From IMG/VR virus record IMGVR_UViG_3300033147_000418, positions 1-64,000 of that record: a stretch of 64,000 nt of DNA. One strand, given 5' to 3'. Positions 4,824-55,513 of this stretch are shown here, one piece after another (the first letter of the stretch is position 1; each line of letters begins with the position of its first letter). Origin of the DNA: a virus. The notes beneath the pieces were generated by a model. That model was given only the letters and a program-made list of their open reading frames with translations. It did not search any database and was not told the origin of the DNA. The position numbers and the translations under genes were made by a program.

Positions 4824-5265
4824 TGCACTGCAGAGGCATCTGAAGTCACGATACTCGGCGGTGACCATCCGTCCGTCGGACAACTACACGCTTGGAGTGC
4901 CGGATCTTTTGGTGTGGGTGCCGACCTGCAAGTCTGGTTCAACGCTCCCTGTTGCTTGGGCGATGGCTATCGAGGCAAAACAGTTGCGGCCGTTGATGCC
5001 GGATCCGTTTCATCGAGGGCGGCGCACGGGGCAGATGCTCAAGCACCCATTCACCGGTCCTCAGATCTCCATGCTGAGATCCCTCAAGGCCGCCGGGGTC
5101 GAAGCGTTCGGACTTGTCAGGGCCTCGGAGGATATTGCGTTTCGAATTGAGCCGGAGGCGATCCCCGCGAAGACAGGAAACTTCACCCACGAGGAGTTGG
5201 TGAAGTTCTCAGTGGTGGTTCGTCGCACCAATGGCAACTGGCAACTGTTTGGAGGAGAACCATGA
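4801..5265 (+). CDS. VRR-NUC / Holliday-resolvase-like PD-(D/E)XK nuclease
   Basis: 154 residues. GVPDLLVW gives the catalytic aspartate, AIEAKQL gives the E-x-K pair, and TGPQISMLRSLKAAGV is the glutamine-bearing helix typical of VRR-NUC and related small nucleases. These cut branched or flapped DNA. TTG start at 4801 with GGGAGGT six bases upstream, inside the end of the OB-fold gene. Its stop overlaps the next ATG (ATGA), so all these genes are coupled. The length is normal for a stand-alone VRR nuclease. Confidence 0.72.
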   Translation: MVEKAFVDALQRHLKSRYSAVTIRPSDNYTLGVPDLLVWVPTCKSGSTLPVAWAMAIEAKQLRPLMPDPFHRGRRTGQMLKHPFTGPQISMLRSLKAAGVEAFGLVRASEDIAFRIEPEAIPAKTGNFTHEELVKFSVVVRRTNGNWQLFGGEP

Positions 5266-6056
5266 TCAAGTACCTGGTCCAAGACATCGAGACAATCCCC
5301 GAGAGCGAGATCGCCGGCGACTGGACACCTTCCGAGTCGGACAAGGAGCGCTATCCAGACAAGGATCCGTTTCCTCCGATCTGGGCTCACAAGGTCGTCT
5401 GCATCGGGATGCTGGCGCTCGACGAAGACCTCAAGCCGGTCAAGGGTGGTTGCGCCGCCGGCGGCGCGGCGGGTGGCAAGGGGGAGCGCGCCGCCATCGA
5501 GCGGTGGAACGAAGCTGTGTCCGGCAAGATGTGGAAGCAGGAGCACGCGCTGAGGATGGTCGACTACAACGGTCGCGGGTTTGATGTACCGGTGCTTCAA
5601 ACCCGCGCGTACCGCTATGGCATCCAGATGCCGTGGTACTTCGGCCTCCTGCCGGACAACAAGGGTGGCGTCTCGAGCTGGTCGAAGGAGTATCGCGATC
5701 GCTACGGCGGCCGGCACATCGACGTCCAGGACCTGTGGACCAACAAGGGCGCGTTCCGGTATCCGCACCTCGAGAACCTGGCCAAGCTCATGGGCCTTCC
5801 GGGCAAAGTCGGGATCGATGGCAGCAAGGTGCACCAGGCCTACAAGGACGGGCAGCACAAGGAGATCGACACGTACTGCATGCAGGACGTGTTTCAGACG
5901 GCGTTCATCTTCCAGCGGATCAGGTACCTCTCAGCTCGACTCGACCTCGACGAATACCGCGCCGCGGCGGGCGCGCTGATCGACTTCATCGCTGAGCAGA
6001 CGGAGCACACCGAGTTCCTGGGGGCAACAGACCGCGCTGCTGTTTTGCTCGAGTAG
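5262..6056 (+). CDS. DnaQ-like 3'-5' exonuclease (PolB-exonuclease family)
   Basis: 264 residues. Exo motif I is QDIETIP near residue 8. Exo II is DYNGRGFDVPVL in the middle, where N-x3-F-D is the family form. Exo III is YCMQDVFQTAF near the C terminus. Together these give the DEDD metal ligands of the RNase H-like exonuclease fold, and the order and spacing match stand-alone predicted PolB-type exonucleases. It could proofread or trim 3' ends. A Gly/Ala-rich insert (GGCAAGGAAGGKGE) between Exo I and Exo II is unusual. ATG with GGAGGAG upstream, coupled to the nuclease before it. Last gene of the operon. Confidence 0.8.
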   Translation: MIKYLVQDIETIPESEIAGDWTPSESDKERYPDKDPFPPIWAHKVVCIGMLALDEDLKPVKGGCAAGGAAGGKGERAAIERWNEAVSGKMWKQEHALRMVDYNGRGFDVPVLQTRAYRYGIQMPWYFGLLPDNKGGVSSWSKEYRDRYGGRHIDVQDLWTNKGAFRYPHLENLAKLMGLPGKVGIDGSKVHQAYKDGQHKEIDTYCMQDVFQTAFIFQRIRYLSARLDLDEYRAAAGALIDFIAEQTEHTEFLGATDRAAVLLE

Positions 6057-13749: not shown

Positions 13750-14277
<528 letters not shown>

Positions 14278-14321: not shown

Positions 14322-15215
14322 CTAGGTGAGCGTCATCTTGGCCGCGGCGCGCAGGTTGCCGTAGCCGAGTCCGATGTACTCCCAGGTCTGCCACGAGACC
14401 ATGTCGGCCCGCTTCTCGATGTAGAACTTCGTGTCGTTGAGGATGTAGAAGTTCCCGAGGTACTTCGGGTCGGTGAAGATGTACAGGTCACCGGGGGGCA
14501 CGATCGACGACTTGATCGTCACGACCAGCTTGTGGCCGAGGATGGTGTTGTACTTGTACCCGTTGACGAGAACCTCGGACGCCAGCGGCGAGCCGATGAT
14601 CGCGGACTCCTGGGTCATGAAGTCGTCCCAGTCGGCCTTGTGCATCAGGATGCAACCGACGGCGAGTTCGTCCGTGTCCAGGGCCTTGAACAGCTTCACC
14701 AGGTTCTCGGACGTCGCGGGGCCGGCGGCCGCCGGGACGATCGTCTTGCCGTTCGCGACGATGACCGCGTCGGTGAACTCGATGAACTTGCCATCCTCGA
14801 TCTTCTGGATGTCCTTGACCGAGTTCTCCTCGATGACCTTGGTCACCGGGTAGTCGAAGGCCAGGAGCTCCGCTTCGTTCTTGCGAAACTTCTCGCTCTC
14901 GATCTTGAAGAACGGGATCTCGTAGCGGTCGCCCTCGATGTAGCGCTCGAAGGCCTTGCCGCGGAAGTTGACCGCGGCGGCGTTCGACTGCGGCTCGATG
15001 TCGACGATCTTGACGAGCGTGTCGTGGTTGACGGAGCGCTGGCAGTCCGCTTTGGTGACGTACTCGGGCGGCAGGATGCTGCGCGTGAACGATACCTCGC
15101 GCAGGCGCTCGCGCACGAATGCGCCACCGGCCTGTGCAGCCTTCTCGAGCCCGTCGTGGGTGTCGAGGCGTGAGATGAAGAGGTTGTTGAAAGTGGCGGC
15201 GTCGATCTGGTCCAT
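14322..15215 (-). CDS. Major capsid protein candidate (HK97-fold type), 297 aa
   Basis: 297 residues with an N-terminal helical arm (FNNLFISRLDTHDGLEKAAQ), an extended E-loop-like acidic region, and a C-terminal half typical of phage capsid proteins: VGCILMHKADWDDFMTQ, then a P-domain-like ending (PPGDLYIFTDPKYLGNFYIL, EKRADMVSWQTWEYIGLGYG). It follows scaffold-like and decoration-like genes and precedes neck genes, the classical order. ATG with AAGGAGAAGG upstream. It would build the icosahedral shell. N-terminal cleavage by the protease-like protein at 18499 is possible but not shown. Confidence 0.75.
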   Translation of the reverse strand: MDQIDAATFNNLFISRLDTHDGLEKAAQAGGAFVRERLREVSFTRSILPPEYVTKADCQRSVNHDTLVKIVDIEPQSNAAAVNFRGKAFERYIEGDRYEIPFFKIESEKFRKNEAELLAFDYPVTKVIEENSVKDIQKIEDGKFIEFTDAVIVANGKTIVPAAAGPATSENLVKLFKALDTDELAVGCILMHKADWDDFMTQESAIIGSPLASEVLVNGYKYNTILGHKLVVTIKSSIVPPGDLYIFTDPKYLGNFYILNDTKFYIEKRADMVSWQTWEYIGLGYGNLRAAAKMTLT

Positions 15216-35485: not shown

Positions 35486-35878
35486 TCAAACCGTGGATTG
35501 CAACGTTATGCGGGCGATGAGTTTAACCGTCGCCCCGGTCGAGCGGATCACGAGGGATTGCTTCTTGGACAGCACCACCGACTCTCCGACGGTCGTGACG
35601 AAGTCTGTTTCGTCGGTCCCGCACAGGAAGAGCAGCTCGTCACCATCGCGGTCGCGTTTGTGCACGGTCCACGAGGTCTGTCCGCCGAGCTTGAGCTCGA
35701 CAGAGCGCACCATCAACGGTTCCGTGAGCTCGGGATCGGGTGTGAACAGCCCACCCACGGCGCCTATCGGATAGGCCTCGAGGTGGTCGCCACGGATGAT
35801 GGCGTCGACGGGCACGACCCCGGTCCAGTCGTTGGCCGCGAGCAGCTTCTGCTCGATGATGCGCAGGCCGTTCGCCAT
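35486..35878 (-). CDS. Small beta-rich protein next to the terminase, 130 aa
   Basis: Strands dominate (VRSVELKLGGQTSWTVHKRD, DGDELLFLCGTDETDFVTTV, SLVIRSTGATVKLIARITL). The ATG overlaps the terminase stop by one base. It is the size of a small baseplate or decoration domain. No family recognised. Confidence 0.55.
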   Translation of the reverse strand: MANGLRIIEQKLLAANDWTGVVPVDAIIRGDHLEAYPIGAVGGLFTPDPELTEPLMVRSVELKLGGQTSWTVHKRDRDGDELLFLCGTDETDFVTTVGESVVLSKKQSLVIRSTGATVKLIARITLQSTV

Positions 35879-37647
35879 TAGAATCTCCCGTGGCTGATGT
35901 CGGCTGCCAGCTTGCAGTAGGCCAAGCTGTGCAGCGCGTCGTCCGGCTGGTCGATGGGGTGGTCGTACATCATCATCCTGGTGCGATCATTGTACTCCAC
36001 GTACTCGGCGAGGATGTCGGCCCCGAATGGCTCGAACTCATCCCAGGCCGGGAACATGAACCGCTCCTGCTTGATGTCCTGGAACAGCTGCGAAAGCACA
36101 GCGTTCCTGTTCACGATGAACTTGAACGCGTTTGGATCCCAGCGCTTGCGCTCGCCAAGCGACGTCGAGTAGGCGAATTGCATGACGGCGTCACGGCCGC
36201 GGGCCGCAAACAGCCGACTGTTCATGCCCCACCCGTGTCCCCAGTCTGCGCCCAGCACCTCGACGTTCCAATATCCGCAGAGATGGATTACGTCGGGCAG
36301 GATGAACTCGGGATCGATCTCCTTGCCGACATACCGCTTCATCATGAACGGCCAGAAGAGTTCCTCGTTGAGGTAGCCCCCGATGGTTAGCACGGTCCAC
36401 GAAGCGTACTTCTTCCGTCCGCCGACTCTCTCGCCCTCCTCTCGCCCTTCCCCCCAGTCGATCCCCGCGAAGAGTCGCATCCCAGCGTGCTCACTGGACC
36501 GTCGATGGATGAACGCGGCGGACGACTTTCCCTCGACCTGCTTGCTTGGATGACAGCACCGCTGGACGTCCATTCGTGTAACAGGCGCCGAGGCTGTGTC
36601 GAAAGCAAAGCCCAAGATCTCGTTGTTGAACTTGGACTCGGGCCACTTCTCGAACGGCAGCACAATCTCTGCGTGCCAGGCCTCGGGTGATTGTTTCCAT
36701 GGCACCATCAGCTGCGAGATGTGGTAGCCGACATAGAATTCGTCAGGCTGGAAGGAAACCCATTGCCCCTGTGCTGGGTTGATTCGCTTGCCACAGTTCG
36801 AGCAGATCAGGCCAGCCTTCCCTATGCAGTTCGAGTCGAGAAAATTCCAGAACCTGGGCTTTTTGCAATCACACGGAACAAGCCATTCGTTCTGAGTCGA
36901 CCAGCTCCAATACTCCTCGAGCGTGTTCGAGAAGGTCAGCGGTGTGCCGGTGAGCATCTCGCTGCCCTCGACGCCGGCGGCTAGCCTCGAGGCCGACAGC
37001 GACTGGCTGATGACCTTGATGTTGTCCTTCAGCAGGTCCTGGGCTTCATCGAAGAACACGCGACTCGCCGGGATGCCTCGGGCGCGCGCCGCGGTCAGGA
37101 AGGCGTAGCGCAGGAACATGTAGGAGCCGTTGAGCAGCGTCTTCTCGAAGACCTGGTCAGTGATCCCCTTGCCGACGAACACGTCCTTTATGAACGGAGA
37201 ATCGTAGATCGTTGGACGCAGTTTCTCGTTCGAGTACTGCCGGGTCTGAAGAGCCGACGGAGAGACGTATAAGCTGCGCCAGTGCGGCCGGATCACAGCC
37301 TCGAGCAATTGCAGGTTGCAGATGGTGGTCGACTTCGCGACCTGGCGCGAACACTTCAGGACAATGCGCGGGTCCTCGTTGTTGTAGACGGGAAGCAGGA
37401 ATGCGTGGTTGTCAAGCCTGAGCGGGCGACCAAGGTGGTGAAGTATGGACTGCGCAATGTCGCTCTTGCGTCCACGGAAAGCCGGCTTGTCCGTCTCCGT
37501 GTCGATCTCGAGCAAGCGAGGCTTCCAGTCGTAGGCCTTGTTCCAGTCGATGTTGGTCGTGAATTTTGGTGGTTCGGTATAGCCGGTGAGATCGAAGGGA
37601 TCAGCGTCAAGGGCTTCGTCGGTTTCGGCTGCGTTGATGTCGGCCAT
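35878..37647 (-). CDS. terL: Terminase large subunit
   Basis: 589 residues with all parts of the packaging motor. Walker A-like CSRQVAKST is at residues 99-107 and Walker B VFFDEAQD at about 197-204. The nuclease domain has D397 in AGIDWGEG, D468 in LGADWGHG and the DDALHSLAY pair near 569. A cysteine set (C259, C261, C274, C282, C285) between the domains probably binds zinc, as in some terminases. The enzyme pumps DNA into the prohead and cuts the concatemer. ATG overlaps the preceding stop. The small subunit is not identified; the gene at 37647 is a candidate by position only. Confidence 0.92.
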   Translation of the reverse strand: MADINAAETDEALDADPFDLTGYTEPPKFTTNIDWNKAYDWKPRLLEIDTETDKPAFRGRKSDIAQSILHHLGRPLRLDNHAFLLPVYNNEDPRIVLKCSRQVAKSTTICNLQLLEAVIRPHWRSLYVSPSALQTRQYSNEKLRPTIYDSPFIKDVFVGKGITDQVFEKTLLNGSYMFLRYAFLTAARARGIPASRVFFDEAQDLLKDNIKVISQSLSASRLAAGVEGSEMLTGTPLTFSNTLEEYWSWSTQNEWLVPCDCKKPRFWNFLDSNCIGKAGLICSNCGKRINPAQGQWVSFQPDEFYVGYHISQLMVPWKQSPEAWHAEIVLPFEKWPESKFNNEILGFAFDTASAPVTRMDVQRCCHPSKQVEGKSSAAFIHRRSSEHAGMRLFAGIDWGEGREEGERVGGRKKYASWTVLTIGGYLNEELFWPFMMKRYVGKEIDPEFILPDVIHLCGYWNVEVLGADWGHGWGMNSRLFAARGRDAVMQFAYSTSLGERKRWDPNAFKFIVNRNAVLSQLFQDIKQERFMFPAWDEFEPFGADILAEYVEYNDRTRMMMYDHPIDQPDDALHSLAYCKLAADISHGRF

Positions 37648-38546: not shown

Positions 38547-40742
38547 TCATCGTGTGAAGCCAACGGGGGCCGCGGCCTCGACAATGCGGCCCCCGGCCAG
38601 ACGGGGCTGAGGCCTCGCTGCAGAGGTTTTGGTTTGGTCGCCGTTCAGCTTCAGACGACCGAGGCCGTCGATGACCCGTTGGAGGTGTTGCAGGGCGGAC
38701 CGAACCGCTTCCTCAGGGATGTCCTCCATGCCCAGGCGCGCAGCGAGGAGGAGCTTCGAGAGCATGTGGCTGACCTCCCAAAGCAAAGGCTTTGCCGTCG
38801 AGAAGCGCTCGAGGTTCTCTTCGTTGACGAATCCGAGCGAGAGAACGGAGTCGACGGACTCTGAGTCGTCGAAGTTGGCGGCTATCTTCACGAGCTCATC
38901 GATCGGCGGCTTGATCTGCTGAGCGAGCCGTCTGTGCGCGAGGTTGGGCGCAGCGGTCTTGATCTCGGCGGGGAGCGGGGGGAAGCGGAGGTGGTGCACC
39001 TCGAGCCGAACGCGGCTGTGCGCGCCGTTGAGGACCTCGGCGGTCTTCTCGTGGCTGAGCCCCCACGAGCACAGGAGGAACTCGGCCTCGTGGCGCTGCA
39101 GGTGGTTGAAGTCGAACGCCTGCTTGGCAGCGGAGCTGTACTTCGAGGTGGCAGCGTACTTCGAGATAGCCCCACCGCGCAGGATGTACCGTCCATTGGC
39201 GGTCGCCACCTTGATCGGGTTGATGTCCAGATGCTCGAGCGCGATGCGCTTGAAGTCGTCGGGGCTTTCAGAGATCGGGCACAGCCGGGGCATGCGAACG
39301 AAGAACATCTTGGCCGACACGATGTAGTTGGCCTTGGGGCCCATGAGCGGTCCGAGCTCGGGGCGCTGGCTGTCGGCGACGCGAACGATGCCGTCGACGT
39401 TCGGGGACAGGATCAGGTTCGCGTGATTGCCCTTGTAGTCGACGACGCTCAGGCTTCGAAGGTTGTTGAACACGACCACGGACGTGATCTGGAACGGCAC
39501 GGTGCCCATAATGCGTTCGCCGTCGCGGTACACCAGCGTTCCGATTTTCCCGGTGTCGGCGCGGTCGGCCTTCAGCGACGTGTCGTCATCGTCATCCAGG
39601 CGGATCCCGGAGATGCGGCTCTGGAAGGAAGCCAGGGCTTTGCCCAGGAACAGCTTGATCGGCGCCGGCTTGCCATCGAAGCTCACCACGTTGGGGATTA
39701 CCCAACCCTTCGCCAGAACACCGTCCCGATCTCGCACCCCGTAGCGGCCGTATTTGTCGATCGTCGTCACGACACGATCGTCCTGGAGCGGATCGAACAC
39801 CCACGGGTTCTTGTGAGGGCCCAGGTTGGCGCCGTAGCCGCCAGAGCCGTCGACGCCAGACCCACTGGGCCCATCGATATCGGCCCCGTAAACGGGCTTG
39901 GGGGGCTCGATGGTGAAGTGGCCGATGTGGTCGATGTGCGTGAGCGGATCCTTCTCGAATTCGTCGAGCTTCGAGCAGCGGAGATCGAGGTAGCGCTTCA
40001 TCCCCTGACGATCTGTCGTGACCATGCTCGGGTCGTAGACTCCGTCGTTGGCCGAGTAGAGGCGATAGGCGTCGGGGCCATCCTTCTTGATCGTGAGTAC
40101 CGCCGCGGCGCGCTCCTTGTTGATCGCGTCCTGCTCGTCCTCTTTGGGCTTGTTGTCCGCGGCGAACTTCTGCAGAACGTCGAGGGTCCCGTGGCGGTGA
40201 TACCCGGCAAGCAGGCTCGGGTTGGACTGGACGGCCTGCTTGAGCAGATGGATGTCGTCGGCGCCACGCGTGCCGTCGATGATCTCCGAGAGCGGAGCCG
40301 AGTAGGAGTACTTCCCCCCCAGCGGGGGATTTCGTGCGTCAGCGAAGACGTCGTCCGTCATCTGGGGCGGCGGCTTCCTTGAGGCCAGCCCCACTCCGAG
40401 GCTGCTCTGATAGAACGCCTTGGCGACGTTGTCGTCGCTCAGGGGGTAGACCTTGTTGTCGGCGAAGAACAGGTCGATGGGGGCCAGATGCCACGACCTG
40501 ACGATTACCGGAATCCCGATCTGCTTGCCGCCGCTCACGTCGCGGGCAATCGCGGTTCCGACCGCATACCCCTTTTCGTCATCCACCTTCTGGAAAACGA
40601 CGGTGGTGTCGAGATCGAGCCCCTTCGGAAGATGCTCCGCGACGATCGCGGAGACCTCTTGCTGCCATTCACGTACGTTGTCCGAGAGCTTCTTGTACTG
40701 GACTCGGCGGAACTGCGGATCTTCTGAGAAGAGGTTTTCCAT
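38547..40742 (-). CDS. Large virion-region protein of unknown function, 731 aa
   Basis: The ATG at 40742 follows a GTAGGAG ribosome site; the frame opens further upstream but only in the shadow of other genes. Three parts can be seen: an N-terminal domain with strand-rich GYAVGTAIARDVSGGKQI; a middle of charged helices and acidic turns (DIDGPSGSGVDGSGGYGANL); and a C-terminal domain of alternating strands then helices (FQITSVVVFNNLRSLSVVDY). No catalytic signature found. It sits between baseplate-like genes and the terminase group, so it is probably structural. Confidence 0.6.
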   Translation of the reverse strand: MENLFSEDPQFRRVQYKKLSDNVREWQQEVSAIVAEHLPKGLDLDTTVVFQKVDDEKGYAVGTAIARDVSGGKQIGIPVIVRSWHLAPIDLFFADNKVYPLSDDNVAKAFYQSSLGVGLASRKPPPQMTDDVFADARNPPLGGKYSYSAPLSEIIDGTRGADDIHLLKQAVQSNPSLLAGYHRHGTLDVLQKFAADNKPKEDEQDAINKERAAAVLTIKKDGPDAYRLYSANDGVYDPSMVTTDRQGMKRYLDLRCSKLDEFEKDPLTHIDHIGHFTIEPPKPVYGADIDGPSGSGVDGSGGYGANLGPHKNPWVFDPLQDDRVVTTIDKYGRYGVRDRDGVLAKGWVIPNVVSFDGKPAPIKLFLGKALASFQSRISGIRLDDDDDTSLKADRADTGKIGTLVYRDGERIMGTVPFQITSVVVFNNLRSLSVVDYKGNHANLILSPNVDGIVRVADSQRPELGPLMGPKANYIVSAKMFFVRMPRLCPISESPDDFKRIALEHLDINPIKVATANGRYILRGGAISKYAATSKYSSAAKQAFDFNHLQRHEAEFLLCSWGLSHEKTAEVLNGAHSRVRLEVHHLRFPPLPAEIKTAAPNLAHRRLAQQIKPPIDELVKIAANFDDSESVDSVLSLGFVNEENLERFSTAKPLLWEVSHMLSKLLLAARLGMEDIPEEAVRSALQHLQRVIDGLGRLKLNGDQTKTSAARPQPRLAGGRIVEAAAPVGFTR

Positions 40743-40750
40743 TGGGGCTC

Positions 40751-41194
40751 CTACAAGATCGGAACAACCACTCCCGGGGGAACGGTCACCTTGACTGCGC
40801 TCAGGGTGAAGCTGCTGATGACGGCTGCGAGACCGTCGGCTTGCTGCTGCGGAGATGCGTCGTCGGGTTGTTGACTGGTAACGCCGCCGGTTGGAACGAC
40901 GCCCGTGACGACTCCAGCCTGGGCTGGGACAGGTAGGCCTTGCCAGAAGACGGAAAGCGCCTGAATGAACAAGGTGGGGCCGCCGCCGGCGAGCTCGGGG
41001 TTGAACGCCGCCGCGAGCGCCGATGCAAACGCCCGCTTCTTGGGGGTGGCGGGGATACCGCCGGCGAGCGCGTAATCGGTGTATGCCTGCGCCCAAGTCT
41101 CGGCCGCATCCTTGGTGGATGATGGAGCTGTCTCCGCAACGAACATCGGAAGAAGTCCCGTAGCGAGGACAGATGTGACATTGGCCAGAGGCAT
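40751..41194 (-). CDS. Structural-region protein, 147 aa
   Basis: The N terminus is hydrophobic (ANVTSVLATGLLPMFVAE) and the body is Ala/Gly/Pro-rich (FASALAAAFNPELAGGGPTLF). It ends with a strand-rich PPGVVVPIL. Small proteins with an ALAAAFN region that takes part in lattice contacts are common near baseplate genes. No firm family. The stop is nine bases from the next ATG. Confidence 0.5.
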   Translation of the reverse strand: MPLANVTSVLATGLLPMFVAETAPSSTKDAAETWAQAYTDYALAGGIPATPKKRAFASALAAAFNPELAGGGPTLFIQALSVFWQGLPVPAQAGVVTGVVPTGGVTSQQPDDASPQQQADGLAAVISSFTLSAVKVTVPPGVVVPIL

Positions 41195-43612: not shown

Positions 43613-43650
43613 GGGGGAGGGGTCGGGTGGTTCCCCCCTCCCCCCTTTTT
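43613..43650 (+). terminator. Intrinsic terminator between convergent genes
   Basis: GGGGGAGGGG pairs with CCCCTCCCCC across a ten-base loop, followed by TTTTTA. It closes the + ssb cluster, and the tail of the stem overlaps the end of the minus-strand zincin gene. The complementary A-run is not long enough on the other side to make it clearly bidirectional. Confidence 0.85.
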
Positions 43651-44755
43651 AGCCTGCCTTGGCGATTCGGAACCCTCTTTGAGGGTTGTACAAGGACTCG
43701 AGAAGGTCTTTGTAGTAGGCGAGGTTTGACGGGGGCTTGGCCTGAGTGCGCCCTCGAGCGGTCGCGTTGAGCCGTGAGTTGGGCTTGATATCCTTCGGCT
43801 TCGGGGGGGTGGCTCCGCCGATACGCCATGCTGCCGCCGCGCTGTTGCGCAAGACGCCAGGGGCTTTGATCTCGGCACCAATCTGCGCAGCGGTTTTCGA
43901 GCCTTCCTCGCGACGCCTGTGGAGCGCCTTGACGAGGTTGCGCGCAACCACGGTTGCGATGATCGGCGCTGCCGCACTCGCGATGTACGTCCCGAACGCC
44001 GGCGCGAGCTCCTTGATTGCGCGAAGGGTCCCGATGTTGTGGAGCTTCGCCCCCCTTACGGCCCGAAGCGACGCGCGCCCTTCCTCCGCCAGCTCGGGCA
44101 GCATGGTCGCGCCGACGAACTCCGGTGCGTGGTCGTACGCAAACCGACGCGCGCGCGAGGCGTCTTCGTCGGGCGGCAGCAAAACGTTGCCGAGCGCAGC
44201 GTATCTTGCCAGCGCTCCAGCCCGCCCGCGTTGCCCGAGCCCCATTCCGATGTCCTGAACGAGTCGCCGAGCGCGAACGCTTCCCCGGATAGGGGCAGCG
44301 TGCCCGATCTCATGGAAGGCGTGGGGGACCGACGACCTGGTCAACCCAATGTGCGAGGGAAGATCTGGTACGTCGCGCTTCAGAACACGCTGATAGAAAG
44401 TCTTTAGCCGATTCGTTGGAAGCTCTTTGTCGTAAAAATACGATTGCCCAGGCACAACTGACGACTTGATGGGCTCGACTACTCCACTTTTTTCAGCGAA
44501 GCGTTTGATTGCTTTGACTTCGGCTCGTGTGAACTCTGCGATGCGCGCGAGCGGTGTCTCTCCGTCGGCCTTGATAGATTTCCCGCTTGCCAGAAGATCA
44601 GTGAGGCCGCTCGGCAAGTCGCTGAGCAGTTGCCGGGTAATGCGCGGGAGACCTTCGTACACGGCTGCGCCAGCAAGCGCAGGGGCGACGCCGAGTTCTT
44701 TGCGGATCGCATTCTCGCGCTTGATTACGGACGGACGCTTCTCGCTTTTTGGCAT
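43649..44755 (-). CDS. Zincin-like protein, paralog of the protein at 23191, 368 aa
   Basis: HEIGH at residues 148-152 (HAFHEIGHAAP) is a metallopeptidase motif. Glu212 in DHAPEFVGATM is the likely third ligand, at the same relative place as in the protein at 23191 (DHAPEILGATL). Both then share a long helical linker and IKELAPAFGTYIASAAAPII, a hydrophobic Gly/Ala block. The C terminus is basic and disordered. The ATG at 44755 overlaps the RNA polymerase stop (ATGA), so it is coupled to that gene. The recurrence of the pair suggests a conserved job, perhaps envelope entry or virion maturation. Confidence 0.65.
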   Translation of the reverse strand: MPKSEKRPSVIKRENAIRKELGVAPALAGAAVYEGLPRITRQLLSDLPSGLTDLLASGKSIKADGETPLARIAEFTRAEVKAIKRFAEKSGVVEPIKSSVVPGQSYFYDKELPTNRLKTFYQRVLKRDVPDLPSHIGLTRSSVPHAFHEIGHAAPIRGSVRARRLVQDIGMGLGQRGRAGALARYAALGNVLLPPDEDASRARRFAYDHAPEFVGATMLPELAEEGRASLRAVRGAKLHNIGTLRAIKELAPAFGTYIASAAAPIIATVVARNLVKALHRRREEGSKTAAQIGAEIKAPGVLRNSAAAAWRIGGATPPKPKDIKPNSRLNATARGRTQAKPPSNLAYYKDLLESLYNPQRGFRIAKAG

Positions 44756-47700
44756 CAATACACGCCTTCCGTCTTGGATCGGCTGGTGGTTTTAGCTTTG
44801 CCCTGCAGGTCGAGCCCACCCTCTGCACCAAACTCTGCACCGTAGACGAATGAGGGGACGGGTGCATACCCGTGGATGTCTGACTCTTCTCCCTCGGTGG
44901 CTCCGCGGACGAGCGACTCGACAAGCTTGCGATATCCGAGTTGGCTCATCCAATCCTTCCTGAGCATCGGAACTCGCTCAATCCCGTGGAGCTCAGGCAG
45001 GTCGATGATCGGCCGGGGGCCAACCTCGACCTCGGATTTGCCAGCACGCTGGATCAACGTCTTCGTTCGCTCGTCGATTATGCGCCCCTTCTTGGCGCCC
45101 GGAATGTCTTCCTTCAAGATGTGGCCGACCACATCGTCGACCGACATCTTGCCCAATGACTGCTCGTTGAATGAGCGAACCTCCGTCCAGGGCGCGAGTT
45201 CGTTCCTGAGGTATGAGCTCCCTCCAGGGTCAAGGATCTTGGTCGTGTTTCCGATTGACCGGAGAACCGTCTCTATGTTGCGCCGTTTGATAGGAGCGCC
45301 TTGCTTGTCGTAGGCATCCTGGATTTCCCCGGAGATGTAACTCAATGCTGTTGGCAGATCCTTGGTTAGCTCGACGAGCTCCTTTGGCTCAACGATGCCG
45401 TCGGACAGGATCTGCCCCTTGGTCACAACGCTACCCGTGCGAATTCTGCTGGAGTTCCACTCTGGCTCGGGAATGAAAACTGGCTTGGGGTTTCCTTTCT
45501 TGTCGACGGCTCCATCGATGAACACATTTCGTCCGCGGCCGTCGGGGTCTTTCTCGATCCGCTGCACTCGCCCGGCAGCTGGTGCCAACATCGCCTTGCC
45601 CTGCTTGACTTTGTACATCTTGAAGAGCTTGTCGATTTTCGCGTAGCCGCTGATAGCCGTCCTGGTGCCAGAGATGCCGCCCTGATGGAACGTTCGCATT
45701 GTCATCTGCGTGAGTGGTTCGGACAGCGACTGACCGGCGACTGCCCCGATGTTGTCCCCGATGGCCGGAAGCGTGCCAAACTCGTTCAGGCCGTAGCATT
45801 TTGCGCAGGTCCCCTTTGGCATCTTGCACATGATAGGGGAGCGAACGTCGATCTGCTCGATCTTGCGCTTCTGTAGCTCGGCAAGCATCACCGAGGTCAC
45901 CGCGTCGCCAGCCTTCGCGAGCACCCGTCCGCCGACTCGGATGTCCTTGGACAAGAAGCGGTCCTCCACATCCACGCTCTCAGTGGGCAGCTTGAGTCCC
46001 TCAGTCGTCATGCAGTCATCCTTCGAGACGACGTTGGTAATCGCGGCGGCCATGATGTCTTTGTTGAACGCACCGGGGTTCGCCGTCTGGAGCTGCTTAT
46101 CGACCGCAGACGCCCGCGCTCCATAGAGCGTGCTCCAGTAGTCGGAGAACGGGAGACCCGCCGCGAATGACGTCGTGATTGGGATGGGGCTTGGATTCCC
46201 CCTGTGGTCATCGACCATGAACGGCGCCGAGACGATCTGCTTGAGCTGGTTCATGTTGCCTCGCGCGCCGGAGCGAACCATCAAACGGAAGTTGTTGCCT
46301 TGCTTGTCGAGGCTCTTCTCTACAATCGCGTCGATTTCCTCGTTGACCGCATCTAGCTTGTCCGCCGCCGCCTCTCGCCCCTTCTTGGTGTCGAGCCGCA
46401 AAGCGGAGACTTCGGCAAATGTCTTCTTGAAGAGAGCGTCCTTCTCCGGGATCGGAGGGAGAAGATCGTTGAGGCTAACGGTAACTCCGAAGTTGTACGC
46501 GTGGTCGTCGCCGAGCCTCTTGAGCTTGTCGACTACGTCGCCGTACTCGTTCGGAAGTTCATCGGCTACCGACTTGACCATCCCGTCGAGAACCTCCTGG
46601 GTGAGCACCTTGCCACCGAACTCCTTGCTGGTTTTGGGCGGAAGCACCGCTGCGATCTGCTTGCGGAGCTTCGGGTCCTTCGACATCAAGTAGAGGCCAA
46701 GCGAAGATTCGTTCTGTGGCGCGATCATGACCCGGCCCGTTCCCGGGTTGTATAAATGCTTCGAGGGGAGCATCCCTTCCGCCTCACGGATCGCATCGTC
46801 GAGTATGGGAACGTGGACGGTCATCGCGTCGCCATCAAAGTCGGCGTTGAACCCCTTGACGACCAGCGGAGGAATCTTGATCGCTTTCCCGTCGGTCACT
46901 TGTGGCTTGAAGGCCATGATGGAGAACTTGTGGAGCGACGGGGCTCTATTCAAGATTACCGGCCGCTTCTGCATCTCCTGGGTAAGCATCGCCGCGGCCG
47001 CGGCGGACCTATCCGCAACCGCCTCCTGCGCCTCCTGCGGGCTCATGCCGCCGTGCACAACTAGGCGCCGGCGAACGAAGGGGCTGTAGAGCTTCCACGA
47101 CATGTCGAGCGGGAGTCCCACCTCGTCGAGTCCGAGCTTGGGCTCAGGGATGATCGTCCCGCGCCCAACCAGGTCTTGCCGCCGGCTGACTAGCTTGTCC
47201 TGGAAGAAACCCGTCTTAGGACTGGTGCCCTTGATTTGTTCAACGATGCCCTTGGGGCGGCGCTTCTCCGGATAGTAGGCGATCGGCGAAGTGAATCCAG
47301 CGAGAGCTTTGGTCCCCTCGTACAGCTTGCCTCTCCACTGCGCCTTGATGGCATCGGTGATGAACGGGACTTCGTTCTGCCACTTGAGCTCGTTGTTGAT
47401 GAGGCCGATGTCGCGGTAGAGGTTGTTCAGCCCCGGCACGGACAGGTCGCCATCGGCCATTTCTATGATCGGGCGAAACACGGGCGGCATGACCGGGATT
47501 TTGGTTTGAAGGTATGCATCCTCCGGCCGAACCCCCAGCTTCTTCAGAGCGCGGAGATACTTAATCTTCGTGTGCGCTCGATTCAGCTTCGTGGTGCCCC
47601 GCGCCTTCTTTGCTTCATCGGTCCAGTGAGCCAGTTCCGTGTCAACATCGATCTTTGAAAGCAGGTACTTGAACGCTGCGCCACCGGTAAGGCCTTGTTC

Positions 47701-50700
47701 GGCGAACTCCCCGGTCTCGGGGTCGATGAAGACTTCTCCTCGGATCAGTCCCTCGAACTGCGCCTTCTTCAGCTCCGTTTTCTTTGGTCCGATGTCGATT
47801 AGCTTCTTGATGGGGGTTTCGAACACGGGATTCGGGATCGGCTCCGCGAGCTCGATGTGCCCCCAGCGAGTGCCTTCCCTGCCCCCGAAGATTTGCCGGT
47901 CCATCAAGCCGGTCTTCATCTCGCTCATCTTCCCCGAGTAGATGAATACAGGCGACTCCACCTCACCATTGCTCAGGCTGGCCGTCTCCTTGTCCGTCAT
48001 GGGGCCAACAACCAGCCTTGAGCCGTTTCGCTCCACGTTTACGCCCGCGGCCTTCAAGTAGGCTTCGAACTTCCGATAGGCGAAAGTCGGCTTTGGTGGC
48101 GGGGGAGCCTGAATGCCCGTGTGCTCCGCGGTGCCGGTCAACCAGGTCCAGAAGTCCTCGTTCTTCTCCGCCTTGTACGTCGCCATCTCTCGAAGGTTTG
48201 CTCGCGCGCCGTGCGCCAGCATCGAGTACATCGAGATCATGTCGAGAGACTTCGAGCCGTCGTCTCCACCGCGCAAAGGCTGGCGGTTGATGTCGTATTT
48301 TCCATCGTCGCGCGCCGAAAACTGAGACGTTGCCTGCTTCGACAGCTTGAGGATGTACTGGGGGCCGACAAGCACCTCGCCGAGAGGCTTCTTGCTCTTC
48401 GGATCGTAAAGCGTTTCGACGTCTGAAATACCCGCAACGGCGAGGGCCTTCTTCACGGTTACGGCGTGATTTTCACCGTTGAAGTTATCCACCGCGTACG
48501 GCTTCTTGCCGAGGTCCGCGATCTTGGCTGCCGCTGTTTCAAGCAGCTGCGAAGGGTTGATCCTACTCACCACGCCGGCGGGGTTCAGCAGGATATCGAC
48601 AGGCTTCCCATCGGCTGTGTGTGGTGCGTCACTGACCGGGATGATGCGCGTGATGATGCCCTTGCCGCCGTGTCGGTTGGTCAGCTTGTCGCCGATTTGC
48701 GCAGGCTCTTCGGTCTTCACGTAGACCTTGACGCGCTGCCCTTCCTTCACGACGTCAATGACCGTACCGACCGCATCCCCATGCCAGGTTTCCTCAAAGC
48801 CTAGAACCTCCTTGTGGGTCTTCAGCATCCGCTTAGCGGTGATGATCTCCGGGTCGTACTTGTTCTGGCGAACGCCTGCCCAGAGCGGGTCTCCCTTGTG
48901 GATCTTCGTCCCCTTCTTGATCACCCCATCGTCGTCCAACATAGCGAGCAACTCAGGTGAAAGCCCGTTCGCCTTGTGCGCGCGGTATTTGGCTTTGGAC
49001 AGCTCCGAGCTGCCCTCGATCTTGAACACGTATTCGTGCAGATGTTCGCTGGTGAGCTGCTCGGCCGCATCCTCCGTGATGACGATCCCGTCTTCGAAGT
49101 TGTAGCCTTTCCACGGGATGTACGCGGCGCGCAAGTTCGTGCCCAACGCGAGCGTCCCGTCCCTGGTGAAGTTCGAGTCCGCAAGCACGTCGCCCGCGCC
49201 GACTTCGTCGCCCGGCTTCACCGTAGGTGTCGCGTTGAGAAAGGCTTTGTTGTTGAGGGGCAGGTTGTTGTAGACCGGGTATTCGACATCTCGCCCCCGG
49301 GTGGTGATAACGATCTTGGTCTTCGACACGCTCTTGACGACGCCGGCGTCGATTGAGCGAATCGAAAAGCCTGAACCCAAAGCGTCCTCGATCGTGCCAC
49401 GGCCGATCTTGACCTGGACAAGCGGGGCTTGGCGATGCTTGAGGGGGATAGCCTGCTCGAGCATCTTCGTCGCCATCTGTGCGCGAACGCCCTGCGCCGA
49501 CGCCAGGAACGGGATCGTGTTCGACGCGACAGAGAATGCCTGGCGCGCGCTCTTCAGCACCACGTCGACCTTCTTTGGGTCAACCAGCTGATGTTCGCCG
49601 GCCACGAGGGCCTTGACCTTCTTGCCAATGGGTTTTCCATCAGGGAACTGGTCGGGGAAAGAGAGAACCAGATCCTTCATCTCCGAAGGAGAGACCCTGC
49701 GCGTGGACTTCTTTCGTCGGTCGTAAACGAGGGTCATCAGCTGATCGCCGCTCTTGGTTACCCCGACAGGAAGAGTCATCACCAGCCCGATGTTCTCTGA
49801 GTCCGGCGTGTGAATAGGATCGATGAAGCCTGCCTGCGACGGATGGAGCGAATGCGCTGCATTCCCGGCGCGCTGGGCGCTGGCCAACCCCCCTTCGCCC
49901 AGTACCGTGATCTTGGACATTCCGTTGATCATGTTGAGCGGGTTGGTTTGATCGGTGGTGTTCGAGAGCGCGCTGCTGGTAAAAAACGAGTCGATGATCG
50001 GCGAGAGAGCGCTTGGGCGAATGACGTCCTTGACGGCCTCTGGCTTGTATCTGTAGCTGCGCAGCTTCTTGAGGATCCCCTTCCGAAACCCCTCCATCAC
50101 GGGAGTGAGTTCACCGTTCTCCTTGATGAACCGTTCCTTGATGAGGTCGGAAACGCTAAGCGTTTTCTTGTACTCGAGCGCATGGCGGTCGTCCGGTCGC
50201 CGATCCCCGGTGGTAGCGAGCATGACCTGCTTCGCTGCGTCGGCCAAAACTTCGCCACTGACCTTCTTGTACCGAACGCCGACCGTCTCCTCGGTTACGT
50301 TGGGATCCAACACCGCTTCTGCAAACTGCTCGCGGAGCTTCTCTACGGCCTGGTCGGCCGACACGTACTCCCCCGGGTGCAAAGCCTTCGCGATACTGAT
50401 GACAGACTGAGCACTTTTCTTTTCGCTGATGGCCTTGTTCGCCGCGAGCGTCGACTCGCCCCACTTTTTTGCCAGCAGCGAATCTGAGATTCCGAGCCTG
50501 GACAAGAGCGGATAGAGAGGCCACGCGCTGGATCCGCGCACAACGCTGAACTTGCCAGTAGCAACGTCCATCTCGATCCCGAACGAGCGCCCCGTCGTCA
50601 TCACCTCCGCTTTCATGTCGCGGCTCTTCTTCTGGGTGACGTAGATGCCCGGGCGACGACGCAACTGGTTGTAGACCTGGTAGTGCTTGCCGTTGACGAT

Positions 50701-51012
50701 GAAGCTGCCGAGTGTCGTGTTTTTGGGGAGGATGGCCAGCCGTATCTTCGGTTCGCGCGAGAGAACCTTCCCGGTGTTTCGGTCTATGAGCTCGACGTCG
50801 GCGTAAACCGGAACGCCCCAGGTCTTGTCCTTGCGCGAAGCGTCGCGCTGCCCTTTCCAGTCCTGCGGGTCCTTGTTGTCGTTGACCCAAACCTTCCTGG
50901 CTCGCAGCGACAGCCCCGCCTTCGCCGCGTCTGCGGTGAGAGCCTTCGTGAACGCCTGCGCGACGTTCTTTTTGATGAGCTCAAATTGGCCGTCGTAGTC
51001 GAAGGTCTCCAT
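44755..51012 (-). CDS. Single-chain multisubunit RNA polymerase: beta and beta-prime in one polypeptide, 2085 aa
   Basis: Residues 1-960 are beta-like: HPSQAGFIDPIHTPDSENIG (391-410) in the fork region, GYNFED (636-641), GDKLTNRHGGKG (774-785), LLNPAGVVSRINPSQLLE (808-825) and a beta-type C-terminal helix (LREMATYKAEKN). From about 1020 it is beta-prime-like: MGHIELA-type GHIELAEP (1051-1058), the catalytic NADFDGD (1389-1395; D1391, D1393, D1395), a trigger-loop TMRTFHQGG with H1776, and a four-Cys zinc site (C1667, C1729, C1736, C1739). The beta-prime N-terminal zinc ribbon is missing: GLMDRQIFGGREGTRWGHIE joins directly. No alpha or omega is encoded here. The ATG at 51012 is preferred; the 216 codons of open frame upstream are not RNAP-like. 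Confidence 0.93.
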   Translation of the reverse strand: METFDYDGQFELIKKNVAQAFTKALTADAAKAGLSLRARKVWVNDNKDPQDWKGQRDASRKDKTWGVPVYADVELIDRNTGKVLSREPKIRLAILPKNTTLGSFIVNGKHYQVYNQLRRRPGIYVTQKKSRDMKAEVMTTGRSFGIEMDVATGKFSVVRGSSAWPLYPLLSRLGISDSLLAKKWGESTLAANKAISEKKSAQSVISIAKALHPGEYVSADQAVEKLREQFAEAVLDPNVTEETVGVRYKKVSGEVLADAAKQVMLATTGDRRPDDRHALEYKKTLSVSDLIKERFIKENGELTPVMEGFRKGILKKLRSYRYKPEAVKDVIRPSALSPIIDSFFTSSALSNTTDQTNPLNMINGMSKITVLGEGGLASAQRAGNAAHSLHPSQAGFIDPIHTPDSENIGLVMTLPVGVTKSGDQLMTLVYDRRKKSTRRVSPSEMKDLVLSFPDQFPDGKPIGKKVKALVAGEHQLVDPKKVDVVLKSARQAFSVASNTIPFLASAQGVRAQMATKMLEQAIPLKHRQAPLVQVKIGRGTIEDALGSGFSIRSIDAGVVKSVSKTKIVITTRGRDVEYPVYNNLPLNNKAFLNATPTVKPGDEVGAGDVLADSNFTRDGTLALGTNLRAAYIPWKGYNFEDGIVITEDAAEQLTSEHLHEYVFKIEGSSELSKAKYRAHKANGLSPELLAMLDDDGVIKKGTKIHKGDPLWAGVRQNKYDPEIITAKRMLKTHKEVLGFEETWHGDAVGTVIDVVKEGQRVKVYVKTEEPAQIGDKLTNRHGGKGIITRIIPVSDAPHTADGKPVDILLNPAGVVSRINPSQLLETAAAKIADLGKKPYAVDNFNGENHAVTVKKALAVAGISDVETLYDPKSKKPLGEVLVGPQYILKLSKQATSQFSARDDGKYDINRQPLRGGDDGSKSLDMISMYSMLAHGARANLREMATYKAEKNEDFWTWLTGTAEHTGIQAPPPPKPTFAYRKFEAYLKAAGVNVERNGSRLVVGPMTDKETASLSNGEVESPVFIYSGKMSEMKTGLMDRQIFGGREGTRWGHIELAEPIPNPVFETPIKKLIDIGPKKTELKKAQFEGLIRGEVFIDPETGEFAEQGLTGGAAFKYLLSKIDVDTELAHWTDEAKKARGTTKLNRAHTKIKYLRALKKLGVRPEDAYLQTKIPVMPPVFRPIIEMADGDLSVPGLNNLYRDIGLINNELKWQNEVPFITDAIKAQWRGKLYEGTKALAGFTSPIAYYPEKRRPKGIVEQIKGTSPKTGFFQDKLVSRRQDLVGRGTIIPEPKLGLDEVGLPLDMSWKLYSPFVRRRLVVHGGMSPQEAQEAVADRSAAAAAMLTQEMQKRPVILNRAPSLHKFSIMAFKPQVTDGKAIKIPPLVVKGFNADFDGDAMTVHVPILDDAIREAEGMLPSKHLYNPGTGRVMIAPQNESSLGLYLMSKDPKLRKQIAAVLPPKTSKEFGGKVLTQEVLDGMVKSVADELPNEYGDVVDKLKRLGDDHAYNFGVTVSLNDLLPPIPEKDALFKKTFAEVSALRLDTKKGREAAADKLDAVNEEIDAIVEKSLDKQGNNFRLMVRSGARGNMNQLKQIVSAPFMVDDHRGNPSPIPITTSFAAGLPFSDYWSTLYGARASAVDKQLQTANPGAFNKDIMAAAITNVVSKDDCMTTEGLKLPTESVDVEDRFLSKDIRVGGRVLAKAGDAVTSVMLAELQKRKIEQIDVRSPIMCKMPKGTCAKCYGLNEFGTLPAIGDNIGAVAGQSLSEPLTQMTMRTFHQGGISGTRTAISGYAKIDKLFKMYKVKQGKAMLAPAAGRVQRIEKDPDGRGRNVFIDGAVDKKGNPKPVFIPEPEWNSSRIRTGSVVTKGQILSDGIVEPKELVELTKDLPTALSYISGEIQDAYDKQGAPIKRRNIETVLRSIGNTTKILDPGGSSYLRNELAPWTEVRSFNEQSLGKMSVDDVVGHILKEDIPGAKKGRIIDERTKTLIQRAGKSEVEVGPRPIIDLPELHGIERVPMLRKDWMSQLGYRKLVESLVRGATEGEESDIHGYAPVPSFVYGAEFGAEGGLDLQGKAKTTSRSKTEGVY

Positions 51013-51040: not shown

Positions 51041-51144
51041 CCTAGTGCAGGAGGAGTTATAGGAACTCGTCGACGATCGCGAGTAGCGTTGGCGTCGGAA
51101 CGATCGCATCCTTCGGTCTTCCGCTCATCGGTCACGGGCTTACC

Positions 51145-53161: not shown

Positions 53162-53453
53162 CGGATTCTCCTTTGGTGCGTTTGGGGGGTTTCTCCCAGT
53201 AATGTACCACCAGGTACACGTCTTCCTGGGTGGTCACGATCCCTTCGGGGCCACCCTCTCTAATCACCGTCTTGCGGGTGTACTCGCGGATTTGCTCGAT
53301 ATTGATTCCGCTCGAAGCGTTGTTCGCGTTGGTGCGAAGGTCGCCGTAGGTGACCATGTCCTCTGGTTCGAACATGTTGAACGACTTGCACCTGAATTCG
53401 CCCATGCTCTTGGCCGAATCTGCGAACTTGACCTCGGTTGCTTTGGCGGCCAT
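53109..53453 (-). CDS. Hypothetical protein between portal and holin-like genes, 114 aa
   Basis: Unrecognised. Strand-rich (GEFRCKSFNMFEPEDMVTYG, QEDVYLVVHYWEKPPKRTKG) with an acidic disordered end (GESDEDEQKQRDLQSVSSGS). The ATG at 53453 overlaps the portal stop (ATGA) and has GGGAG upstream. The 53 bases that overlap the holin-like gene encode only that polar tail. A small structural or regulatory role is possible. Confidence 0.55.
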   Translation of the reverse strand: MAAKATEVKFADSAKSMGEFRCKSFNMFEPEDMVTYGDLRTNANNASSGINIEQIREYTRKTVIREGGPEGIVTTQEDVYLVVHYWEKPPKRTKGESDEDEQKQRDLQSVSSGS

Positions 53454-55513
53454 CAGACGCTCCCGTCCTTGCGCCGCGGCGGCGCCTTCTGAGGCAAAGG
53501 CTTCATCCGGTCGGAGACGGCCGCTGCGGTTTCGCCAGGCCGCATCTGACCGAGCAGTTGTTCCACGATCCGAGCCATGTTCGGCATGCGGCGTCTCAGG
53601 TCATCCAGGACAGCGACGCGCTGAGCTGACTCCATCTTGGAGATTTTGTTCGCCCACTGCTTGGCGATACGAGCGGCATCCATCTCGACGACTTGCCCGC
53701 CCCCAGACTGCTCACCGGCCTGTCCTGCCACCTGCGCCGGCATCTCAGCTGCTTGGCCTTGAGCTGCCTGGGTGGCCATCTGGCTGTCGTCGGCTACAGC
53801 GCCGCCCGAGGGCGGCGGCGCCGCTCCTGGCTGCTGTGGGGCTGCCTGCCCCGGCGGCTGTTGACCAGCCTGGCCCGGCGCACCCTCCTGGGGCGGCGGC
53901 GCTCCTGGCTGCTGTGGAGCGCCACCTTCGCCGGACACCTGCCCCTGGGCCTGCTCGGCCTGTGCCGGCTGGCCGCCAGAGATCGCACCCTGCGCCTCAT
54001 TGAACGCCTCTTGCGCGCGCGCCTGGTACTTGGCCTGAACAATCTGCGATTCGCCCTGAGCCTCGGCCTGAGCCTTCATTGTGATGGCCTGGATCCGGTT
54101 GCGCGACTCGGCTTCCTTCTCGATCATCTCCTGCTCGTCGTCGTAGTCGAAACCGAGCTCGGTGAGCATTGTGTGATCGGAAATCTTGTTGGCGGCGTTC
54201 AGCTGGATGACGATCTGCTTGCGCTGGATGTCGTCCGCCATCTTGAACTCGGTGAAGCCGATGTCGACATCGGGCATCCCGAGATAGAGGCGCAGGCGAT
54301 TCTTCGCCCAGTTGACGAAGCGAAGCAGAAGTCGCCGGTACATGAGGAAGTGGTTCTCGAGGGTGCGAAGAGACACGCTCGAGCCAGACCAGGAGAGCCC
54401 GCCGAAGACGAACTCGATGGGCACGCCCATCCCGCCCGTGATCTCCTTGTTCGTGACCTCGATCTCGGGCCCGAGCAGAAGCGCGCGACCGTCGCCGCCG
54501 AGGCGCTCGAAACCGAGCGGAACCGAGACCACGGAGATGTAGTTCGGGTCGACCCGCCACTTGCGGATCTCGGTCTGCACCGTGCCTTGCCAGCTCGAGA
54601 GGTTGACGTGCTGGTAGGGGTCCTGCTGGCCGTTGGCCTGCGGGAAGATGAACTCGAGCGGCATGATCCGCTGCAGCGCGATCGCTTCCTGCGCGCGCCG
54701 GAGCACGTACAGGTAGAACATCCGCCCCATCGAGTGAATGATGAGCGGCTTGCCCCAACCCATGTCTTGCTCGGCGAGTGTGGGGCGCTTGAAGTGGAAG
54801 AGGTTCTGATCGCTGAGCGCGATAGACCGCTTCTTCCGGAGCGCCTCAAAGAAGATCGCCGGGATGTCTACGATGATCTCCCGGGTGCCGTCCTGGATAG
54901 CCTTGCGGATCTTGTTGGGGATCTTGTAGCGGTACTTGGACCGCCCCGTGATCGGGTTGTAGTGGATGTCGATGTTCTTCGGATCCCATCGAACGAAGTT
55001 GATGCCTGTCCGGTCGCGCACAGGCACATCCACGATTTCGCCGATCACGTTACTGCCGCAGCCTGGGCACGCGATGCTGAACTGGAAATTCTTGAACGAG
55101 AACTTGAACTCGGGGTCTGCCAGCTTGTGCATGGACTTGCAGACAGGGCAGCGAATCCATCGAATGAACGGCAGGTTCAGCGAGATGAACGCGTTGCCGT
55201 AGCAGAAATAGTCGAGCCCGATCTCGATCAGGAACGGCTTGAAGTTGAGGGTGTCCTCGAGCAGCTCGCGCCATGCCTCGCGGACGTGCTTCTCTTGGGC
55301 GTTGTAGACGAAATCCGTGACCGGGTACTCGGCGACCTTGGTCACCACGGCCCCGATCATCGGGTCCTTGTAGAAGAAGTACTGGCACCACCGGAAGAGC
55401 TCCTTCACGGTGGGCGGCATGTAGGTTTGCGCGATGTCGAAGAACGGTGACGGATACACCGTCCCGCGACGTCGGTCGACCTGCGACAGCCCTATCGATT
55501 GGTCATCAGCCAT
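53453..55513 (-). CDS. Portal protein with zinc-finger insertion, 686 aa
   Basis: The portal core is recognisable: an N-terminal domain with LFRWCQYFFYKDPMIGAVV, the GLDYFCYGNAFISLNLPFIR strand-helix, and a stem-wing region (FHFKRPTLAEQDMGWGKPLI, IHSMGRMFYLYVLRRAQEAI) ending in the GMGVPIEFVFGG and ARLRLYLG-type helices typical of large phages. Dodecamers form the DNA gate at one capsid vertex. Cysteines 122, 125, 149 and 152 make a zinc site inserted in the N-terminal domain. The C-terminal ~200 residues are P/G/Q/A-rich and disordered, longer than usual. It lies far from the terminase and capsid genes. Confidence 0.82.
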   Translation of the reverse strand: MADDQSIGLSQVDRRRGTVYPSPFFDIAQTYMPPTVKELFRWCQYFFYKDPMIGAVVTKVAEYPVTDFVYNAQEKHVREAWRELLEDTLNFKPFLIEIGLDYFCYGNAFISLNLPFIRWIRCPVCKSMHKLADPEFKFSFKNFQFSIACPGCGSNVIGEIVDVPVRDRTGINFVRWDPKNIDIHYNPITGRSKYRYKIPNKIRKAIQDGTREIIVDIPAIFFEALRKKRSIALSDQNLFHFKRPTLAEQDMGWGKPLIIHSMGRMFYLYVLRRAQEAIALQRIMPLEFIFPQANGQQDPYQHVNLSSWQGTVQTEIRKWRVDPNYISVVSVPLGFERLGGDGRALLLGPEIEVTNKEITGGMGVPIEFVFGGLSWSGSSVSLRTLENHFLMYRRLLLRFVNWAKNRLRLYLGMPDVDIGFTEFKMADDIQRKQIVIQLNAANKISDHTMLTELGFDYDDEQEMIEKEAESRNRIQAITMKAQAEAQGESQIVQAKYQARAQEAFNEAQGAISGGQPAQAEQAQGQVSGEGGAPQQPGAPPPQEGAPGQAGQQPPGQAAPQQPGAAPPPSGGAVADDSQMATQAAQGQAAEMPAQVAGQAGEQSGGGQVVEMDAARIAKQWANKISKMESAQRVAVLDDLRRRMPNMARIVEQLLGQMRPGETAAAVSDRMKPLPQKAPPRRKDGSV

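Follow-up and report, generated by a model that had tools for sequence, protein, structure and literature searches.

How a phage might run a bacterial-type RNA polymerase (RNAP) without the subunits that hold the cellular enzyme together is the question raised by the gene at positions 44755-51012 (minus strand, stop codon included) of the window, i.e. the first 64,000 nucleotides of IMG/VR virus record IMGVR_UViG_3300033147_000418. The gene encodes beta and beta-prime fused in one chain of 2085 residues, whereas cellular multisubunit RNAPs need an alpha dimer to assemble the one with the other. The reading favoured here, with a probability of about 0.68, is that the product is a virion-packaged, alpha-free phage RNAP core in a single chain, fused once in an ancestor of a myovirus lineage and delivered together with the DNA. 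The window is part of a virus contig of 66,192 bases, and the phage genome is therefore incomplete.

The frame runs without interruption through its 2085 codons, starting at an ATG whose position agrees with the start codon of relatives (L003-L005), and it matches both large subunits, as the initial annotation had claimed. Six RNAP Pfam domains are arranged as in cells, namely Rpb2_3 (1.5e-11), Rpb2_6 (1e-53, residues 557-915), Rpb1_1 (2.6e-9; at 37.3 bits just below the cut-off of 39.7), Rpb1_2 (2.8e-25), Rpb1_4 (5.5e-7) and Rpb1_5 (5.2e-25), while phmmer against PDB chains retrieved bacterial beta-prime with E-values of ~1e-99 to 1e-100 and beta with ~1e-90. Aligned with E. coli RpoB, the beta part (residues 1 to ~1000; 48013-51012, minus strand) reaches the equivalent of the C-terminal helix; aligned with RpoC, the beta-prime part (residues ~1003-2085; 44755-48006, minus strand) begins near E. 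coli beta-prime residue 25. Both subunits are thus nearly whole and joined directly. The enzyme had been described as complete and close to cellular polymerases, and each description holds in part. The subunits are nearly full-length, but all 29 fused-clade sequences compared have lost the N-terminal zinc ribbon of beta-prime, and the large E. coli lineage inserts (beta ~226-347 and ~937-1048; beta-prime 942-1129) are missing; the chain can be aligned with bacterial polymerases, but at an identity of only 27-31%. A second zinc site (C1667, C1729, C1736 and C1739; 45796-46014, minus strand) is kept in 26-27 of the 29 sequences. AlphaFold models of the two halves, made separately, align with bacterial beta (Z 31, 702 residues, with a high root-mean-square deviation from domain placement) and with E. 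coli beta-prime (Z 27, 874 residues, deviation likewise high); given their low predicted template-modelling scores (0.47 and 0.39), they were used for the fold only, not for domain placement or the join. By homology, the fused chain probably adopts the crab-claw shape of the core enzyme, its single polypeptide containing both double-psi barrels.

The active site is intact in every catalytic residue checked. All motifs quoted in the initial annotation are present (GYNFED, NADFDGD and TMRTFHQGG among them), and the active-site residues K776, K784, R1356, D1391, D1393, D1395 and H1776, are invariant in the 29 fused-clade sequences compared. The two lysines (E. coli K1065 and K1073) lie in the beta segment GDKLTNRHGGKG (48658-48693, minus strand), the three aspartates in the catalytic magnesium site NADFDGD of beta-prime (residues 1389-1395; 46828-46848, minus strand), and the histidine in the trigger loop TQMTMRTFHQGG (45676-45711, minus strand). 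With the catalytic aspartate triad, the catalytic lysines, the bridge helix and the trigger loop all present, the protein has the features of a bacterial-type two-barrel DNA-dependent RNA polymerase, and it would be expected to be catalytically active. The rifampicin pocket is altered at several contact positions (H526 to G, R529 to K and R143 to Y), and resistance to rifampicin is therefore predicted.

The join itself lies at residues 986-1010 (47983-48057, minus strand), where the end of beta passes into the 'SNGEV' segment of beta-prime with no more than a few linker residues in between, and just past them the chain aligns with E. coli beta-prime residues 25-45. Across 12 diverse sequences G990, G997, P1004, T1006 and D1007, which flank the join on both sides, are invariant. 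An independent contig (L002, from IMG metagenome 3300033144) is 99.99% identical to the window over 16.3 kb, including the whole RNAP gene, and scans of IMG/VR, which partly overlapped, gave 189 loci holding 163 full-length fused open reading frames (ORFs) on viral contigs, or 109 clusters at 90% identity. The same profile also retrieved 80 bacterial loci (a few of them on contigs that were cut or frameshifted), where beta and beta-prime are separate and never fused. Because of the invariant residues at the join, the second copy, the 163 fused frames and the separate genes in bacteria, the fusion is real and ancestral to the family, which is large, widespread and represented in culture rather than a one-off.

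Some members of the family carry variations on the gene. In-frame inserts with LAGLIDADG domains occur in the RNAP of L017, L026, L013 and L019, with intein splicing domains in L017 and L026, and on these domain matches the four inserts are taken to be inteins; another insert of ~350 residues, in L022 and near-identical copies, has no Pfam match. In L186 (8490, 9054, 10866 and 13959), L008 (12200) and L194 (9981) the RNAP frame is interrupted solely by in-frame TGA codons, one of which in L186 lies near the column of the near-invariant Trp955. This suggests that these phages translate TGA, probably as tryptophan. The copy in L002 differs from the window by ~190 extra bases (9762-9952) located 48 bp upstream of the RNAP start, which are absent at window positions 51060-51061; either the leader varies naturally by this indel, or the difference comes from assembly.

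The beta tree and the beta-prime tree resolve the same three groups, namely the 19 bacteria, a clade of the viral fused enzymes, and a clade of phages with gp23-type RNAPs. Both viral clades have a Shimodaira-Hasegawa-like approximate likelihood ratio test (SH-aLRT) support of 100 in both trees, and within the fused clade the two trees branch in the same order. In both trees the fused clade falls outside every sampled bacterium, Alphaproteobacteria included. The cellular sequences were 19 bacterial lineages, with no archaea or eukaryotes, and the placement claimed from these trees is therefore 'outside sampled bacteria' and not 'deep-branching'.

The contig carries genes for terminase, portal, capsid and sheath, which mark its source as a tailed phage with a contractile tail and bear out the earlier view of the polymerase as phage-encoded. 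The RNAP is in fact encoded among late structural genes. The portal gene (53453-55513, minus strand; PHROG portal, 5.2e-8) lies upstream on the same strand, an arrangement shared by 83 of the 109 relatives; downstream and co-oriented in 81/109 is g38547 (38547-41096, minus strand), a conserved neighbour of 849 residues; and the gene for the terminase large subunit (TerL; 35878-37647, minus strand), of the PF05876 GpA_ATPase type, lies in relatives downstream of the RNAP at a distance of 5-10 kb, co-oriented in 55/109 loci, a count limited by flank length. The block portal - RNAP - g38547 - TerL is thus conserved and co-oriented, and its genes flank the RNAP across the lineage. Residues 170-327 of g38547 partially match (28%) a virion protein, Gp218, of the cultured Salmonella phage Arash (OQ632216).

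Arash and the Vibrio phages D69, D148 and D181 are the cultured members of the RNAP clade. The Arash/D69 lineage shares the clade (SH-aLRT 100 in both halves), the terminase and capsid families and a portal gene directly upstream of the RNAP (in Arash at 28-33% identity), and in Arash and D69 beta is fused to the N-terminal part of beta-prime. Unlike in the window, beta-prime of Arash and the Vibrio phages breaks off behind the catalytic loop and continues in a second gene (that of Gp216 in Arash). In D181, also unlike the window, beta is split as well, with a homing endonuclease gene between its pieces (L037, 6707-7324), while the gene of D69 is uninterrupted; possibly the endonuclease region of D181 is an intron or a self-splicing insert.

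The purified virions of Arash contain both RNAP polypeptides and a sigma factor, and it is this relative only for which such data were found (PMC10585845). Gp206, which was annotated by the Arash authors as 'subunit beta' without description of a fusion, ranks first by detection, with 3516 spectra, 128 unique peptides and 100% coverage (PMC10585845); the sequence analysis here identifies it as beta plus the N-terminal half of beta-prime. The other relevant spectral counts are 1210 for Gp216 (the C-terminal part of beta-prime), 1148 for the helicase Gp217, 1149 for Gp218, 877 for the portal protein, 467 for the sigma factor Gp10 and 1333 for the capsid protein (PMC10585845). Divided by the annotated lengths, this amounts to ~2.3 spectra per residue for Gp206, ~2.0 for Gp216, ~2.4 for Gp217, ~1.9 for Gp218, ~1.5 for the portal protein, ~2.0 for Gp10 and ~4.3 for the capsid protein. 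By this crude measure, it looks as if polymerase, helicase, Gp218 and sigma factor were present in the virion in comparable amounts.

With respect to partner subunits, the initial annotation had seen neither alpha nor omega, and the searches agree. Alpha was not found in the window's own contig or in 19 relatives, nor omega in 12 records, the complete genomes of Arash and D69 being included in both sets; candidates for alpha in two relatives were weak 27-residue fragments with stops, below the cut-off, and were discarded. Sigma region 2 was detected in 7/19 relatives, Arash and D69 among them. On the window's own contig a search with PF04542 gave no sigma factor, and the only match came from the region 4 model (PF04545, 3e-10), at residues 69-105 of a 158-residue ORF (3587-4063, plus strand), which is a candidate promoter-recognition partner. 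An exact k-mer search of the intergenic regions for a phage promoter motif returned GC-rich words only.

Taken together, beta and beta-prime would have been joined end to end once, in the ancestor of a distinct myovirus lineage. The fused enzyme would be made late, along with portal and terminase, be packaged in the virion with a sigma-type factor of the phage, and upon delivery with the DNA transcribe the early phage genes without the host polymerase, the covalent link probably standing in for the alpha dimer in part of the assembly. For the window phage itself, packaging is suggested by gene neighbourhood and kinship; early transcription and independence of alpha are likewise what we infer. 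A wider version of this reading is put forward more tentatively, at somewhat less than even odds: that a full-size one-chain core working without alpha and omega is found throughout the lineage, is packaged along with a compact sigma factor of its own and is injected in one piece, and that a single early fusion persisted because it meets two needs at once, assembly without alpha and delivery.

Several points weigh against packaging and self-sufficiency. Arash is a distant relative (34% identity or less) with a split beta-prime, its authors point out that proteins abundant in the cell might have been carried over into the preparation (PMC10585845), and the proteome table has some entries that seem of doubtful reliability, with many spectra but few unique peptides. 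The 158-residue protein has sigma region 4 without a detectable region 2; the clamp-helix residues that bind sigma in E. coli, R275 and E295, are not conserved, so that the sigma contact must differ; the 66 kb of an incomplete genome may leave room for other partners, and host alpha could still bind the fused chain.

The carry-over, raised as it is by the Arash authors themselves, leads to the proposal that the fused core is not a virion enzyme at all, but is made during infection and transcribes the middle and late genes, its presence in the particle being contamination. The many enzymes of DNA metabolism in the same table and the sigma factors in the genomes, which fit a holoenzyme made de novo, would agree with this. 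Yet the RNAP gene sits within the portal/terminase block across the lineage, and in Arash no protein of the preparation was detected more than the fused subunit, with its 128 unique peptides and with its direct neighbours also present, which makes a purely intracellular role unlikely. Somewhat less improbable, but still doubtful, is that the chain assembles with the alpha dimer (and omega) of the host, so that only the large subunit of the enzyme would be specific to the phage and the rest would come from the host. The overall bacterial architecture of beta and beta-prime and the lack of a phage alpha would suit such a hybrid, and a parallel exists in Helicobacter, whose fused rpoBC is generally held to assemble with an alpha dimer and omega. 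On the other hand, a packaged enzyme should bring host alpha along, and the Arash table lists phage proteins only; moreover, the RNAPs of jumbo phages function without alpha (PMC7598289).

Two further alternatives concern what the gene is rather than what it does. Since the contig is metagenomic, an assembly artefact, a chimera or a pseudogene had to be considered, and the initial annotation had itself named a frameshift or assembly join at residues 960-1020, or halves from different donors with disrupted catalytic residues, as grounds for rejecting its proposal. The former is ruled out by the L002 copy and the 163 fused frames, the latter by the congruent half-trees and the intact active site; bacterial contamination is ruled out by the phage genes on the contig and by the lack of any bacterial match above 31% identity. 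An artefact is hence hardly conceivable. A more serious possibility, though still the poorer bet, is that the window RNAP belongs to the mReC lineage of Weinheimer and Aylward (2020; PMC7481178), only its fusion having gone undescribed. The mReC enzymes are, like that of the window, two-barrel RNAPs of tailed phages that can be aligned with bacterial ones and fall outside the sampled cellular clades; of the three mReC sequences pictured, two were recovered from IMG 3300017989, where a fused contig (L167) also occurs, and with only 8 capsid and 31 terminase genes in the 97 mReC contigs, part of these could be of the fused lineage. The reported hallmarks, capsid PF07068 and terminase PF03237, point the other way. 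PF07068 was found in 0/20 fused-lineage records, compared to 6/6 gp23-type RNAP contigs used as control, and all seven fused-lineage terminases match PF05876 only, not PF03237. The lineage's own terminase occurs in 18/26 fused-RNAP records and 0/6 gp23-type records, and its major capsid protein (14322-15215, minus strand, in the window; PHROG major head, 1.3e-15) in 12/26 and none, respectively. In addition, both trees place the gp23-type RNAPs in a clade of their own, and the text of the mReC paper mentions fusion for crAss-like phages only (PMC7481178). Because the two hallmark genes were tested and not found, the enzyme is not filed under mReC, and the link to the deep-branching metagenomic lineages that had been suggested at first is not confirmed. 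A second group of RNAP phages was met on contigs of 90-320 kb, mostly jumbo-sized, with beta as a separate gene (L029-L034 and L211-L221); the six tested (L029-L034) have gp23-type capsids and, where it was found, a separate beta-prime gene that is sometimes in pieces. This group fits the published mReC hallmarks.

Among the characterised phage enzymes, the virion and non-virion RNAPs of phiKZ and AR9 also lack alpha and omega, and the former is carried in the virion. They consist, however, of four or five very divergent polypeptides without a recognisable sigma factor (PMC7598289), in contrast to one chain, 27-31% identical to bacteria, with sigma-type proteins present. The enzymes of crAss-like phages (gp66), YonO, and gp64 and gp96 of P23-45, the last being a virion RNAP, similarly have two barrels in a single polypeptide, but are reduced and barely alignable to cellular RNAP, whereas the window's enzyme keeps nearly full-length beta and beta-prime (PMC10770324, PMC5467207). 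By analogy, it would work like the phiKZ and crAss-like virion RNAPs, yet it is neither split nor reduced, and with its single frame and six cellular RNAP domains the initial distinction from both kinds stands. Fused rpoB-rpoC genes are also cellular: in Helicobacter and Wolbachia the C-terminus of beta is joined to the N-terminus of beta-prime in the cell's only RNAP. The phage enzyme differs from these by the missing beta-prime zinc ribbon and by its position outside the sampled bacteria, among which neither genus was included. No description of a beta-beta-prime fusion in such phages was found in the open-access literature. A full-size, alignable enzyme in one chain, present in more than 100 divergent phages, would show how the need for alpha can be dispensed with, and would give structural work, evolutionary studies and biotechnology a simple polymerase of bacterial type encoded by one gene. 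The tie between this environmental lineage and cultured phages of Salmonella (Arash) and Vibrio makes the questions about a virion polymerase testable at the bench.

Three other features of the window may be mentioned. The RNAP stop codon overlaps the ATG of a function-unassigned gene of 368 residues (43649-44755, minus strand), a homologue of which lies directly downstream in 10 relatives; its product has no Pfam or PHROG match and is kept in near relatives. A replication gene at 5262-6056 (plus strand) matches the 3'-5' exonucleases of the DNA_pol_B_exo2 family (PF10108, 2.8e-40). Finally, tandem GCCTCAGCC/GCCTCGGCC repeats occur at 13811-13942, within an alanine-rich ORF.

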